Below, piece by piece: positions 36,032-41,694 of a DNA stretch of 64,000 nucleotides. Numbering within the stretch: position 1 is the stretch's first letter; each line of letters starts with the position of its first letter. The position numbers were made by a program, and so were the translations under genes. Under the pieces are notes generated by a model that saw only the letters and a program-made list of their open reading frames with translations, did not search any database and had not been told where the DNA came from. The DNA is taken from NCBI RefSeq assembly GCF_003025005.1, contig NZ_PVSS01000006.1:1-64000 (forward strand), given 5' to 3'. This DNA comes from Brumimicrobium mesophilum. Its GTDB lineage: Bacteria; Bacteroidota; Bacteroidia; Flavobacteriales_D; Crocinitomicaceae.

Positions 36032-36898
36032 TTATAAAACCCTGTTGCAGAAGTTTCTGCGCTTAAGTTTGGGACAAAACTCATTCAGATATGATTGTAA
36101 ATATTTTCCTTTTATTTTGTGAAACTCACTCAGCAAAGTTCTTTTAGCATTGCTAATTGCAATATAAACCCACTTTAAAATAGTTTTAGTAAATTGATTA
36201 TTAGACTTTCTCTGTTATATGTGTTTCTAAATAATTGGCAATATCTAAGTAACTACTGTTTTTATTGGAAAGAACAATTGCGGATTCGTCAAAATTTTCC
36301 TCAACCAATTCTGAATTTGTATAAGCATTGTGATAAGTAAATACTTGCATTTTAAAAAATCGGCATTGGTTACTTTTATGCCCTGTTTCTATATATTTGA
36401 GAGTAGGTGACTCAGCCATAACTGCTACATTTTGACACTTATGGGCACCCTACCTCGTTTCAATTTAATCTTTTTTGGGGTTGCCTTAGCAAAATATCCT
36501 TCATAAAATTCAATAGAGCCCTCCAATGGGTGTAAGTTATCACGTTTCCCTATTACTCCTCTAAATTTTATACCTAAATGGCCAGATTGAATAGTACTTT
36601 GGGTGATCCAACTGTCGTTGAAGTCCATTCGCTGAAATTTTTTTATTATTGTTAGTCATATAAGCCATAGCTTGGTACCAATAATAAAAATTGACTTTAG
36701 AACCATGCTTACTACCACTTTTAAGAGTAGTCCTAAAAGAACAGTTCTTGTATTCTAATTGAATTTTACTTAGAAGGCAATAATGATCCATGTTGTCCAC
36801 TATTTACATTTTACAACTTCCTTTTCTCTTTTAATTCTAAAATGAGCCTTGCAAGTTTCATTATTCGGGAATTCTTCCATAAATCTTAGTAAATTCAT
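36032..36898 (-). pseudogene. degenerate IS1595 (ISXO2-like) transposase
   Basis: Fragments of one transposase of about 290 codons lie in order on the minus strand but in different frames. They are: start MNLLRFMEEFPNNETCKAHF (36898), YKNCSFRTTLKSGSKHG, IGKRDNLHPLEGSIEFYEG, the KMQVFTYHNAY region, and the tail AISNAKRTLLSEFHKIKGK then LNEFCPKLKRRNF ending at 36032. Frameshifts and in-frame stops (for example after KEVVKCK and after HITEKV) make it dead. A -7-like TACCTTTG is 14 nt before the start codon. The element ends were not resolved. Confidence 0.8.
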
Positions 36899-37022
36899 CT
36901 TCTTTTTTTCTTCAAAGGTAGATGTCAAGCACATAATTTATTTATGCACTGGTATTCTTAGGGGGAAGAATATTAAAATATATAATATAATTTCAGATCT
37001 ATTCTGTATCTCACATGATCGA

Positions 37023-37372
37023 TTATTTTGAATGAGATCCAGAATTATAGGGATTTTCTGCCATCTCTAGTGAATTTATCGTTTTAGTTTTTACCATTTT
37101 TTTAATATAATATAAGCAATCCCAATTACAATAAAAAAGCTGGCAAACAAGAGAAACTAATCGTACTTTGGAATTATAGGGGAACCTAAAATTAATTCTG
37201 CAGGCTTATAGAATATCACGAATTCAGTTATTGCGAACCCTAAATCATAGTATCTTAAATCTATTTTATTCAATCGAATAAGTTCCGTTTTGTCAAGTAA
37301 TGCCAATAAACCCATTATAACCACTCCAAGAAAAAACCAATGTAGAAATCCAATAGTTGAACTAAACCGATT
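37023..37372 (-). pseudogene. C-terminal fragment of the split His-rich membrane protein
   Basis: The minus-strand frame reads NRFSSTIGFLHWFFLGVV, then GLLALLDKTELIRLNKIDLR, then FAITEFVIFYKP and PKYD-stop-FLLFASFFIVIGIAYIIL. These look like the last three membrane helices of the same protein whose N-terminal part is at 40.1-41.0 kb, interrupted by an in-frame TAG. The fragment begins exactly where the mobile element ends. Read alone it looks like an 80-residue protein (37157-37399), but that start lies in element sequence. Assignment rests on my recall of homologues plus the continuity of the two pieces. Confidence 0.7.
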
Positions 37373-37408
37373 TGAAAATCGGTAATTCCCCCTACTCATC
37401 TCATTGAC

Positions 37409-37443
37409 ATAAATTTATGGAAGTATTAATCCATAAAATTTAT
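37409..37443. repeat. inverted repeat before the recombinase gene
   Basis: Arms ATAAATTTATGGA (37409-37421) and TCCATAAAATTTAT (37430-37443) pair apart from one extra T. It ends 4 bp before the recombinase start, so it could be a recombination or autoregulatory site. Confidence 0.45.
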
Positions 37444-37447
37444 TGAA

Positions 37448-38299
37448 ATGAAAAATCAATTTTCAAAATGTATCGACAAACTCCAACTCGAATTGGAGTA
37501 CAGAAACTTCAGTCCAAGTAGTGTTAAAAGCTATTGTACGACAATGTCAGCAATGGAAAAGCGTTTAAATAAAGCGCTTTCTTCGATTACCACAGAAGAG
37601 TTTAAAGTCTACCTCCATGACTTAATTTTTAATCAAAAACGGTCAACCTCGTTTATCAATCAACACATCAGTGCTTTTAAAATTTTCTATTCAGATATTT
37701 TAAAAAATGATTGGGAAAGAATTAAAATTAAACGACCTAAAAAAGTTCAAAAACTTCCTGTGGTTTTATCAATGGACGAAGTCGAACGTCTTATTTCTGT
37801 AATCATTAACATTAAGCATAGAGCCATGGTAATGTTACTATACTCGGCTGGTTTGAGAAGATCTGAACTTCTTCAAATAAAACCATCTGATATTGATTCA
37901 GAAAATATGAAAATACATGTTAGACAGGGAAAAGGAAAGAAAGATCGATTTACTATTTTATCTTCGAAATGTCTTGAGTTATTGAGGTTGCATTACAAAC
38001 TAAACCGGCCTAAAACCTATCTTTTTGAACCTCAAGGAAACGAAGGAAGTACAATAGCTCCTACTTCTTTAGCAAATATTCTAAAGAAAAATGCTCAAAA
38101 AGCCAATATTAAAAAGGAAGTATCTCCCCATACTTTAAGGCATTCTTTTGCTACTCACATGTTAGAACAAGGTGTGAATATTAAACTCATCCAACGGTTT
38201 TTAGGGCACACCACACTAAAGACAACCTCGGTTTATTTGCATCTAACAAATATCGACCTTACAAAAGTGAAGTCACCATTAGAAAGTATGAATGTTTAA
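37448..38299 (+). CDS. tyrosine-type site-specific recombinase
   Basis: A 283-residue XerC/D-like recombinase. The N-terminal SAM-like core-binding domain covers about 1-95. The catalytic domain has all expected residues: Arg in SAGLRRSELLQI, Lys in GKGKKDRFTIL, HxxR in PHTLRHSFATHML, His/Lys in LGHTTLKTTSVY, and the Tyr nucleophile in the same stretch. It appears intact. Such genes are commonly paired with an IS91-type transposase in Bacteroidota elements, and here the next gene begins 11 bp after its stop. Confidence 0.9.
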   Translation: MKNQFSKCIDKLQLELEYRNFSPSSVKSYCTTMSAMEKRLNKALSSITTEEFKVYLHDLIFNQKRSTSFINQHISAFKIFYSDILKNDWERIKIKRPKKVQKLPVVLSMDEVERLISVIINIKHRAMVMLLYSAGLRRSELLQIKPSDIDSENMKIHVRQGKGKKDRFTILSSKCLELLRLHYKLNRPKTYLFEPQGNEGSTIAPTSLANILKKNAQKANIKKEVSPHTLRHSFATHMLEQGVNIKLIQRFLGHTTLKTTSVYLHLTNIDLTKVKSPLESMNV

Positions 38300-38766
38300 A
38301 ATCTTAGCTATGGAAAATAAAAGACAAACAATCGAACTTTCTGACATTTTTGAGGAGAATAAAGAGACCTTTCTTTCATCATCGAAATTGGTAAGTACTC
38401 AAAAAAAGGCTTTTAGAGATATTCTAAGTTGCAGAACTGAAAAACTAGGTGGACATGTGAGAGAATGTAATAACTGTGAAACAAAAGAGCAAGCCTACAA
38501 CTCTTGTAGAAATAGGCACTGTCCAAAATGTCAGTTTACAAAAAAAGCTAAATGGGTAGATAAACTAGCTTCAAATCTTCCTCCAGTAAAGTACTTTCAT
38601 CTTGTATTCACTGTTCCAGATAGCCTAAATGCTTTGTTTTATCTTAATCAAGCACAGGCCTATAATTTACTTTTCAAGGCTGCCAATGAAACAATAATGC
38701 AAACTGCCGAAAACATCAAGTATCTTGGAGCAAAAGCAGGAGGTGTTGCAATACTCCATACACCTG

Positions 38767-38779
38767 CCCCGTTAGAAAT
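38767..38779. repeat. left terminal inverted repeat of GIY-YIG unit
   Basis: CCCCGTTAGAAAT is the exact inverse of 39048-39060. On the minus strand it contains the last Phe codon and TAA stop of the GIY-YIG gene. Confidence 0.85.
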
Positions 38780-39032
38780 GGAGCTGATGTTTTAATCTAT
38801 TCTTTAAATACCTTCTACCCATACCTGATTTTAGATACTTTTCTCGTGCTATTACATCTGCTTTACTGAAGGAAACTTCGTAGTAAATAACTTTCCAGGG
38901 CATTTTTCGACTTGTTGTAATCGTTTTCCCTGAATTATGTTGAATTATGCGACTTTCTAGGTCTGATGTATACCCAATGTACCAAGAATTATCTTTTTTT
39001 GATGAGAGAACATAAACATAAAATCTTTCCAT
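38772..39032 (-). CDS. GIY-YIG nuclease family protein
   Basis: An 86-residue stand-alone GIY-YIG domain starting MERFYVYVLSSKKDNSWYIG. The GIY and YIG strands appear as YVYVL and YIG, followed by the Arg of DLESRIIQHNSG, the PWKVIYYE strand and the Glu of AREKYLKSGMGR, the usual catalytic set of the YhbQ/UPF0213 group. The longer frame start at 39089 lies in transposase DNA. The -7-like TATATTAG (one mismatch) is 5 nt before the ATG inside the unit. The stop codon lies within the terminal repeat. It appears intact and could make a nuclease. Confidence 0.88.
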   Translation of the reverse strand: MERFYVYVLSSKKDNSWYIGYTSDLESRIIQHNSGKTITTSRKMPWKVIYYEVSFSKADVIAREKYLKSGMGRRYLKNRLKHQLHF

Positions 39033-39047
39033 TGTACTAATATATGA

Positions 39048-39060
39048 ATTTCTAACGGGG
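39048..39060. repeat. right terminal inverted repeat of GIY-YIG unit
   Basis: ATTTCTAACGGGG is the exact inverse complement of 38767-38779. It sits 15 nt before the GIY-YIG start codon. Confidence 0.85.
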
Positions 39061-39759
39061 TGTGGGTCAAACATTAGTTTACCATCCACATATTCACATG
39101 ATCGTTCCAGCGGGTGGACTTTCTGAAGATGGTAGAGAATGGATACCTGCTCACAATAAGTTTTTTATCCCTTTTAAAGTTTTGAGTGCCATTTTTAGAG
39201 GTATTCTTTTTAAACACTTCGAGAAAGTCATTCAAAAAGGTGAGATTAAATTAACCAATGACATTAAAGATGTAGAAACATTAAAAGGAATATGGTACAA
39301 GAAAAAATGGGTAGTTTATACCAAAAAACCTTTTGCAAAACCTAACAATTTGATCAATTATTTAGGCAATTACACACACAGGGTGGAGATCTCCAATCAA
39401 CGTATATTAAAGCACACTGATGGCAAAGTTATCTTTGGTTATAAGGATTATAAAAATGCTGGTTTAAGAAAAACAATGTCGCTTTCAGAAGAAGAGTTTA
39501 TTAGGCGTTTTCTACAGCATATTCTTCCTTCAGGTTTTAGAAGAATACGCTACTTCGGGTTTATGTCCTTGCGGTTCTTAAAAGATAAATTAGTAAATGT
39601 GTTGAAATATTAAACAAAGCGGTGTTTCTACCAATCTTGGAAGGTTTAAACGCATTAGAAGTAGTGAGTTTTGTCATCAATAAGGACATTACTTCTTGCA
39701 AAAAATGCAAAAAAGGAAGAATGAGAGCAAAACACAAAATCATAGCTTCACCTACATGA

Positions 39760-40113
39760 GGCACTTGATTTTATTGAACGTTCTTTTACTTATTGTAATG
39801 ATCGCCAAACGCTAAAAAAGTGTAATGGGATAAATATGTCTTTTTACAAATGAATTTATATGAAGAGGGTTTTATTACATATCGAAATCATTTTAGTCCT
39901 TCATTTTACCACTCCAAAAATGAAGGAAATATCCATCCCAATCAAATCGGCCCTATAGTTTACCCAAAGTGCGGCATAGTCCAACTCCGTTTTATCAGTT
40001 GTTTTCTACTCGTCAATTAATCGACTGTTGGGTTGGCAATTAATTTTTTACGATTATCTTTAGCTACTGAAAGAAAACAACTGATAAAACGCTATTAAGT
40101 TAGGTAGGTGTTG
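39760..40113. other. non-coding right end of the IS91-type element
   Basis: No gene is visible between the transposase remnant and the resumed membrane-protein pseudogene. The stretch holds the 20-bp inverted repeat described separately and is probably the terminal signal region of the element. Confidence 0.5.
39988..40091. repeat. perfect 20-bp inverted repeat at element end
   Basis: CGTTTTATCAGTTGTTTTCT (39988-40007) is matched exactly in inverse at 40072-40091. The 64-bp loop contains a further near-palindrome, GTCAATTAATCGAC. It lies about 20 bp from the deduced right end of the mobile element, where IS91 elements keep structured end signals. Confidence 0.75.
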
Positions 40114-41030
40114 TTACTGATTATCTCGGCTGTGTATTGAAATGAAGCTAAGAGTTGCATTATCCTTTTAATCAGAAGTAACAAGAAGGACCAACGCAGA
40201 AGTTGCCATGCGATTTTTCCGAAAACAAGTCCAATATCAATATAATAATTTCTAACAAAATTAAAAAGGAAGAGCAACCCTGTTAATTGAATTAATGAAC
40301 CTAAAACCGAAATTACGTTTGCAATAATATGAGGTTCACTAAATAGAATAGAAATAAAGTGAGTATTATTCCGATATTGAAAGTGATCGAGAATCGTTTA
40401 ATTAGCGTTTTATCAATAATGATATCATGATTTTTCAGAACTTTAAGGAAAACACTTATCACACCTAAAATCATCCAAGCGTTATACTGAAAATGAAGAT
40501 ATAAAATAAATTGAGGTACGGTACCAAAGCTATTCAGGACCTAAAGTTGCCATCACTCCACCAATTGCCCATGGTCCGATACTTGAAATCAGTAAATAGA
40601 TTATCGCGTATTTTATTGTTTTGAAAGCAGGTGAACTTCTTTCTTCTAGAGTTACGTACTTAAAAAACGGCCATGCATAGAAATAGCTAGCAAATAGAGA
40701 TAGGTTGGAGAAGATAATAGAAAACAATGCTTAGCCCGTAAAAGGAAAAGTGACCATCATTCCGATTAGCGTAACTAAAGTAAAATTGAAAATTCTATTG
40801 TAGACTTTCGATGGAATTGAATCTTTTAGGAAGTAGTAAGCAATGAGTGTAATTAAAGCAAAATATACCCAACCCAAAAGGGCTTCATGAGAGTGTGCAT
40901 GAACGACATATCAGTATTCAAAATCAATTGACGAAACTGCAAAGTGGAGCAATACAATCCTAATAACGCCGCAGCTAAAAAGAAAAGTAACGCAATAATA
41001 GTGTGTTACTTAAATCTAATCACTGATAAT
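40114..41030 (-). pseudogene. N-terminal part of a His-rich multi-membrane respiratory-type protein
   Basis: Minus-strand pieces in shifting frames read HTIIALLFFLAAALLGL, YVVHAHSHEALLGWVYFALI, LIAYYFLKDSIPSKVYNRIF, IIFSNLSLFASYFYAWPFF, SSIGPWAIGGVM, LYLHFQYNAWMILG and FVRNYYIDIGLVFGKIAWQ. There is an in-frame TGA in FEY-stop-YVV, a TAA in FTG-stop-ALF, and several frameshifts. The HAHSH and HFQYN motifs in membrane helices recall cytochrome-oxidase subunit I-like proteins; that link is inference. The rest of the gene is on the far side of the IS91-type element. It was probably cotranscribed with the cytochrome c gene upstream. Confidence 0.75.
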
Positions 41031-41172
41031 CAGTTTTGTAAAAAATGCTTAATTAAAAGTTTTGATTTATTTTAATTATATCGAATCAAAACAACATTGC
41101 TGACAAGATTTACTGCTCAATTTACCTACTTAATATAAAAAAAATCATACATCTATTTTTGAATTGTGTTTC

Positions 41173-41694
41173 TTACAAAGTTCTGATGTATTCTAATATC
41201 GCTCTTGCTTCATCCTCTGTGATACCCTGATTGGTCATCGGAGAACCATGAAATTCAATCAGTAAATCTTTAGCTAAAGGATCTTCTTGAACCATTTTGT
41301 CAGGATTGATAATCATGTTCATAACCCATTCAGGACTTCTTCTTTTAAGAATATCCTTTGGTGCGGGGCCAATGAATTTCTTATCAACTTTATGACATGC
41401 TGTACAATTTTTTTCGTAGATTTCTTTTCCTTTTTCCGCTAAAGCTTCATCAATGGTTTCAGGAATGGTGACGCTCTTTATAGGCCCAACTCCTTTGTTT
41501 TCTAAATCCACGCGTTGAGATGCACTAACTTTTTCATCTTCATGTTCTTCTGCGCCAGATTTAGAGGCTGAATTGTTAGGGTTGTTAGGATTAACAAGTA
41601 CTTTTTCTTCTTTTGCGCTTTCTGCTTCTTCGCCTCCACAGCTGTAAAGTGAAACGGCTAAAAGGAGCAATCCAATTTTAAAGTAATTTTTCAT
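41173..41694 (-). CDS. monohaem cytochrome c lipoprotein
   Basis: A 173-residue lipoprotein (lipobox LYSCGG near residue 19) with an acidic linker to about residue 80. A class I cytochrome c domain follows: haem site CTACHK near residue 97, a GPAPKDI loop, and a probable Met ligand in GSPMTNQGIT. The final helix is EDEARAILEYIRTL. It is a periplasmic electron carrier anchored to a membrane. The promoter and a Crp/Fnr-like dyad are upstream. Its presumed partner downstream is a pseudogene, so its present role is unclear. Confidence 0.9.
   Translation of the reverse strand: MKNYFKIGLLLLAVSLYSCGGEEAESAKEEKVLVNPNNPNNSASKSGAEEHEDEKVSASQRVDLENKGVGPIKSVTIPETIDEALAEKGKEIYEKNCTACHKVDKKFIGPAPKDILKRRSPEWVMNMIINPDKMVQEDPLAKDLLIEFHGSPMTNQGITEDEARAILEYIRTL

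Follow-up and report, generated by a model that had tools for sequence, protein, structure and literature searches.

A GIY-YIG gene unit at a fixed site in IS91-family transposase genes, a probable homing element nested in a split membrane gene of Brumimicrobium mesophilum

Results

The GIY-YIG unit occupies one point in unlike IS91 transposases

In a 64,000-nucleotide (nt) stretch of the Brumimicrobium mesophilum genome (contig NZ_PVSS01000006.1, positions 1 to 64,000; hereafter the window), a membrane-protein gene is split by an IS91-family element that carries its own tyrosine recombinase, and the transposase gene of that element is itself interrupted by a unit of about 300 nt encoding a GIY-YIG endonuclease. 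A sequence-only reading of the window had described this nested insertion and missed that the position of the GIY-YIG unit is non-arbitrary. Taken alone, an insertion nested in a decaying gene is unremarkable; a fixed target in unlike transposases, together with a conversion tract, is not. The unit is probably a homing-endonuclease unit without an intron that has specialised on IS91 transposase genes. Genomes and loci are cited below, where they must be told apart, by our own handles (G and L numbers).

The unit consists of one GIY-YIG gene between 13-base-pair (bp) inverted repeats (Table 1). It takes the place of 3 nt found in the uninterrupted element copy of G005 and introduces stops into the transposase frame. 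Residues Y7, Y18, G20, R28 and E64, which we take to be the key catalytic residues of the GIY-YIG domain, are present in the window's protein and invariant across 11 alignment rows. The unit was not found to reside in a self-splicing intron or an intein, a feature that free-standing homing genes do not need. An intron or known structured RNA within it is unsupported, as an Rfam search of positions 36800-41200 returned no match up to E = 1.

A scan of genome contigs revealed seven related GIY-YIG loci. Two of them lie in Brumimicrobium sp. 4-911; Flavobacterium segetis, F. weaverense and a Crocinitomicaceae metagenome-assembled genome (MAG) have one each, and the remaining two are distant MAG loci, both beside transfer RNA (tRNA) genes. 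In all six loci of the closest clade (the window, L130, L131, L132, L133 and L134, from five genomes) the unit is inserted at LHT^WGQ, between residue 157 (LHT) and GQ of the transposase, and the five other host transposases are 32-45% identical to the window's (tblastn). When the window was compared with L130/L131, the unit showed 88% DNA identity, the 300-nt flanks 60-64%, and the transposases 37-39% (tblastn). The border is slightly altered in five of the six loci, by one or two extra nucleotides; in L134, 4 nt (CCCA) are cleanly duplicated and the W codon stands on either side.

Uninterrupted copies of both element types were found. Type A copies with an empty site, in G005 and G001, are 92-94% identical to the window copy, and type B copies in G002 (L203, L208) lack about 302 nt at the GIY-YIG point, with 83-89% identity to L131 in both flanks; each type was therefore empty not long ago. 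The type A copies in G005 and G001 are full-width, and no other unit-bearing copy was found in the window's genome. Among 20 uninterrupted transposases, the site falls in the second-best conserved 20-nt segment of 1453 (0.83 versus a median of 0.54), and TGGGG is present in 20/20. These figures come from a repeat of the test made without choosing genes that match the site pattern, a choice that had biased the first version. A random position of the unit is rejected by the shared LHT^WGQ point and the conservation of the site.

A conversion tract surrounds the unit in one pair of elements

L130 and L131 are two type B elements of one genome, and they differ at 0 of 294 positions in the unit and at 205 of 2434 outside it (P about 6e-12 if differences were uniform). 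Differences remain near zero close to the unit and rise to about 18% farther out on one side, giving a low-difference tract that reaches about 650 bp to one side of the unit and about 100-150 bp to the other. Break repair with the unit at its centre would be expected to leave this pattern, and such co-conversion of flanks was seen in this one pair.

We hypothesize that the endonuclease would cut uninterrupted IS91 transposase genes at the near-invariant DNA coding for HTWGQ, before the HUH motif, and that repair would copy the unit and some flanking DNA from an occupied copy, leaving the recipient transposase broken. The unit could have spread in this way because IS91 elements occur in several copies and are mobile in their own right.

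Homing weighed against transposition and vertical descent

The common site in six units, the empty sites, the conservation of the site and the conversion tract all support homing; the cleavage step and the jump between unlike transposases are our proposal, and several observations weigh against it. Because unlike transposases share only short stretches of flanking homology, homing of the classical kind would have to make do with very little of it, and simple homing does not explain the extra nucleotides beside the unit. The L133 gene, from F. weaverense, carries a stop codon at residue 21. Apart from the pair L132/L133, the units of L132, L133 and L134 are 67-75% identical to the window's or to each other, near the values of some flanks (54-73%); in that pair the unit differs at 8 of 296 positions and divergence in one flank is no more than about 5-10%, so the pair alone is no proof of separate movement. 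The L130/L131 tract, for its part, could reflect gene conversion between insertion sequence (IS) copies unrelated to the unit. If the unit were instead an IS-like transposon, with the 13-bp repeats as its termini, a strong target preference and either its own GIY-YIG protein or a transposase in trans as the mover, the 4-nt target duplication in L134 would be accounted for, as would a sister group whose units carry terminal repeats of the same type and occupy unlike places (see below). Transposition alone would not give a low-difference tract extending beyond the unit, however, and the site is invariant (6/6) in the window's clade; we consider this explanation unlikely.

Vertical descent from a single ancestral insertion, with the transposases diverging around the unit, agrees with the single GIY-YIG clade and the identical position. 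It conflicts with the excess of unit identity over flank identity between the window and L130/L131, and with the existence of closely similar empty copies of type A and type B. For the window versus L130/L131 it is refuted unless the unit evolves far slower than the HUH transposase core, and overall we give it very little credence. Homing specialised on IS91 transposase genes is thus the reading that we prefer.

The carrier is an IS91-family element that hit the host gene at GTT

The ends of the carrier element were fixed from copies in G005, G001, G002, G004, G007 and G071 (Table 1). Its target in the host gene is GTTAGGT, with GTT common to both junctions; GTT stands at each junction and once in the intact gene, and a 3-nt duplication is indistinguishable from a shared GTT. 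The uninterrupted host gene of G001 reads CCAATAGTTAGATAAG, and the window has CCAATA, the element, then GTTAGGTAGG. The host gene was thus hit by the element at a GTT site, as follows from its contiguity, the defined element ends and the copies elsewhere. The G005 copy of the element is 94% identical and is without the GIY-YIG unit. The element of about 2.7 kb with a tyrosine recombinase and an IS91 transposase holding a GIY-YIG unit, and the three-level nesting, both read earlier from the sequence alone, were therefore borne out. The order of events taken from the nesting held in one respect: the element's transposase must predate the unit inside it. The nesting is compatible both with a unit that was aboard ahead of the element's arrival in the host gene and with one that came later. 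In G001 (C8:101868-102569, L115) the same element is deleted internally with both ends retained, resembling a miniature inverted-repeat transposable element.

Membership of the IS91 family is supported by the zinc-binding and Y2 transposase domains (PF14319, 2e-30; PF04986, 4e-52), and both transposase halves pass NF033538 (179.8 and 204.4 bits, cut-off 125); the C part has a frameshift near 39600, beyond which another frame continues. The recombinase scored 215.6 bits with NF040815, just under the cut-off of 220, and 192 bits with the integron-integrase model TIGR02249, below the cut-off of 265; it matched IntI4 in the PDB at 6e-35. IS91 transposases (E 1e-15 or better) were present in 21/295 genomes of the class. 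A recombinase open reading frame (ORF) lay directly upstream in 16/16 Bacteroidia IS91 loci fetched from the class-genome scan, and GTTGAAC was found no more than 450 nt upstream of the recombinase in nine of these (about 0.4 expected from 7-mer odds alone).

Table 1 Coordinates of the nested features in the window
Feature	Position	Strand	Basis or remark
Host gene, C-terminal part	37078..37355	minus	aligned to G004 gene nt 931-1209
IS91-family element with own tyrosine recombinase	37356..40099	plus	2.74 kb; ends from copies in other genomes
Left-end heptamer GTTGAAC	37356..37362	plus	found in all left ends seen
Tyrosine recombinase, XerA/integron-integrase-like, 283 amino acids, intact	37448..38299	plus	Pfam PF00589/PF13495
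IS91 transposase, N part (zinc-binding domain), ends at LHT	38292..38761	plus	NF033538 positions 1-143
GIY-YIG mobile unit, 302 nt	38762..39063	minus	absent from G005 and G001 type A copies
Terminal inverted repeat CCCCGTTAGAAAT	38767..38779	plus	includes GIY-YIG stop codon on opposite strand
GIY-YIG endonuclease ORF, 85-86 amino acids, intact	38775..39032	minus	Pfam PF01541 1e-16
Terminal inverted repeat ATTTCTAACGGGG	39048..39060	plus	
IS91 transposase, C part (GQ..., HPHIH, Y2_Tnp)	39064..39613	plus	PF04986 4e-52; NF033538 145-315
Right end	39979..40101	plus	GTCCAAC box, arms 39988-40007 / 40072-40091, CTATTAA, G^TT
Host gene, N-terminal part	40099..41023	minus	aligned to G004 gene nt 9-929, tblastn
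Cytochrome c gene, intact neighbour	41173..41694	minus	Pfam PF00034 2e-11; 63% to G001 neighbour

The element ends resemble integron attC sites

An attC site has the plan box, spacer, arm, loop, arm, spacer, GTT, and its box is the complement of the left end. This architecture is present and covarying at the 3' end of the element, and it would fit an IS91 origin hairpin too. All type A right ends terminate at ..AAGTT, and two exact copies in G007 and two in G187 follow the end plan with other sequences, in which a GTTCAAC box and a short spacer precede the stem and a second spacer leads to GTT. A looser hairpin scan found the end plan in 10 of 23 loci (1.13 expected from shuffles; one of the ten, L177, is doubtful by eye), a strict scan (arms of 7 or more) in 3 of 24, and no hairpin was seen at a second 'AAGTT' site in L124. 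In seven short versions of the stem, 10 of 13 pairs had changed in both partners and no pair in one partner alone, and 98.9% of the cells paired, compared with 30-52% when the arms were slid. Six of these seven stems came from a scan requiring a first arm of at least five pairs, so the first six stem pairs are partly selected; the inner seven are unselected. With an attC-type model, 26 hairpins were found in seven of 10 genomes of the genus. Among the 10 of these 26 loci printed in full, no cassette array was seen, and the hairpins that lack a transposase seem to be remnants of 3' element ends, for which reason we claim no cassette array.

Whether these ends are truly attC-like is, in our judgment, evenly balanced. 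They may equally be ordinary IS91-family termini, with GTTGAAC/GTTCAAC as the short terminal repeat and an origin hairpin beside the GTT target, with the recombinase as a passenger or resolvase. Both models give the same junctions, with GTT at each end; the solo hairpins of the genus that look like 3'-end relics rather than cassette arrays, and a recombinase below the integron-integrase cut-off, speak for ordinary termini. The attC-type plan with its box complementary to the left end, the two-sided covariation of the stem and the recombinase in every Bacteroidia locus fetched speak against them.

The host gene is a decayed membrane gene found near nos genes in relatives

The two minus-strand fragments that flank the element are the N and C parts of a single membrane protein of about 405 residues, as the sequence-only reading had proposed. 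When aligned with the intact gene of G004 (L042:1384-2601), as that reading had suggested, they were contiguous (929/931) with no overlap and no missing residues, and they therefore form one gene, continuous across the element; residue identity to the intact homologue was 61% for the N part and 64% for the C part (tblastn). An origin of the fragments from different families, or from overlapping parts of one protein, is excluded by this alignment and by tblastn. The decay noted earlier is also real, as the N part has in-frame TGA, TAA and TAG codons and several frameshifts (alignment, tblastn), and we mark the gene as a pseudogene for these reasons. The outer limits first given, 37023 and 41030, were some bases too wide.

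An intact homologue of about 405 residues is present in 5 of the 9 other genomes of the genus searched. In G002, G004 and G005, ORFs read as nosF and nosY (ABC ATPase and permease, names assigned from sequence and setting) stand directly upstream of it, and in G007 a cytochrome c gene and then nosY do so. In the same four genomes a NosZ above cut-off lies about 4-5 kb away, so that the homologue stands at the end of a nos cluster in 4 of 10 genomes of the genus. Neither a NosY match nor a NosZ over cut-off was found in the window's genome (a 3.88-Mb draft of 89 contigs) or in G001; G001 keeps the host gene intact next to a cytochrome c gene despite this, and the cytochrome c gene adjoins the host gene in the window and in G007 too. 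Given the nos context in relatives and the loss of NosY and NosZ here, the host gene looks like a relic of a lost nitrous-oxide-reductase (nos) cluster.

The family of the intact host protein has no name in Pfam or NCBIfam (L042 has no Pfam match), and its homologues, used for a profile search of the PDB, gave one chance-level match only. The homologues share conserved histidines (H42, H44, H46, H177 and H315), and one of eight has a weak COX1 match (PF00115, E 0.0021), which make a haem-copper-type role plausible. The earlier label 'respiratory-type' is thus supported as far as the nos setting and this weak match go. At 36201-36800, on the minus strand, three short overlapping frames were read as an insertion-sequence transposase relic; Pfam gave no match for two reading frames at 36428-36800.

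Related GIY-YIG units lie beside tRNA genes and in other hosts

A GIY-YIG match was found at 1e-10 in 50 of 149 relatives and at 1e-15 in 86 of 395 genomes of the class, and a tRNA gene (ARAGORN) lies within 450 nt of 50 of 69 GIY-YIG ORFs from 61 loci. In a tree of 62 rows the IS91-borne units form one clade (support 99/96); it includes five of the six, L131 being omitted as its unit equals that of L130. The sister units share the inverted-repeat type (CCCYGTKRRAT...; L138, L140, L142-L146) and lie in 23S_rRNA_IVP genes (L138, L144), a XerD-like gene (L140), a DUF772 transposase (L146) and other places including intergenic DNA (L142, L143, L145), the hosts being named by Pfam except for the C part of L146, which has no match. 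Target labels cluster on the tree (28 changes versus 43.8 in shuffles, none of 200 as low); its deep forks are weak because there are few alignment columns. A scan of viral contigs with the GIY-YIG alignment returned 83 stretches, none a relative.

Several further observations concern these units. G254 carries ten tandem GIY-YIG genes with a period of about 457 nt (C9:906046-910398), and smaller tandems occur in L063, L076, L079, L147 and L165. Partial tRNA copies accompany tRNA-adjoining units in L055, L057, L063, L068, L076, L079, L141, L150 and others; their broken end bears a short palindrome, and one whole tRNA gene seems to be left. By eye, the repeats CCCCGTTAG and CCCCGTAGG of units in protein genes (L143 and L140) resemble the start of Bacteroidota tRNA-Arg, GGCCCCGTAG (e.g. 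L057), and the start of a tRNA-Arg gene is a possible origin of these repeats. In L142 the unit is flanked by a possible variable-protein gene and by a gene that looks bAvd-like from a sub-threshold Pfam match, perhaps within a diversity-generating retroelement.

Discussion

If the GIY-YIG unit is a homing gene specialised on a transposase, it would be a natural check on transposons, as each success breaks a transposase, and one selfish gene would be tracking another across species, a parasite of a parasite. The GIY-YIG enzyme is compact and has a predicted target of about 20 nt. The attC-like ends, if functional, would connect IS91 rolling-circle elements with integron recombination. A literature search found no description of GIY-YIG units in IS91 transposases, nor of an attC-like end architecture of IS91 elements. 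We offer more tentatively, and with some doubt, a reading that joins the two: a large Bacteroidota family of GIY-YIG homing units of about 300 nt may occupy the DNA that is best conserved in repeated genes, for the most part those for tRNAs but also 23S_rRNA_IVP, recombinase and transposase genes, with one clade confined to IS91, and the IS91 elements may be transposon-integron hybrids, in which the HUH transposase would produce single-stranded circles that the IntI-like recombinase inserts at GTT through the folded attC-like end.

Among known systems, some IS91 elements, ISWz1 among them, carry a recombinase gene. ISWz1 is given as an IS91 member from Weeksella in PMC11322121. The window's element is like such elements in its zinc-binding and Y2/HUH transposase over cut-off and in the recombinase ORF directly upstream, and unlike them in its interruption by a GIY-YIG unit and its attC-like ends. 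With integron cassettes and IntI it shares an attC-like end, a GTT target and a XerA/IntI-like recombinase; it differs in that this recombinase lies inside the mobile unit and scores below the integron-integrase cut-off, and in that no cassette array was found among the hairpin loci printed in full. The host gene compares with an accessory membrane gene of nos clusters, since its homologues lie beside nosY (G002, G004, G005) or near it (G007) with NosZ in all four genomes; the window copy, in contrast, is a pseudogene, and neither NosZ nor NosY was found in its genome.

The window's GIY-YIG protein matches the UPF0213 type (PDB 1zg2, 7e-8) and is like these small proteins in size and domain. 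UPF0213-type proteins are known as products of ordinary stand-alone genes, however, not of terminal-repeat units in a transposase. Free-standing GIY-YIG homing endonuclease genes are known as the seg genes of phages, and I-TevI resides in introns. Unlike these, the window's unit is without an intron or intein, interrupts the transposase outright, has terminal inverted repeats and is hosted by a bacterial IS; like them, it has a single GIY-YIG domain, a conserved target of its own, empty relatives and a conversion tract.

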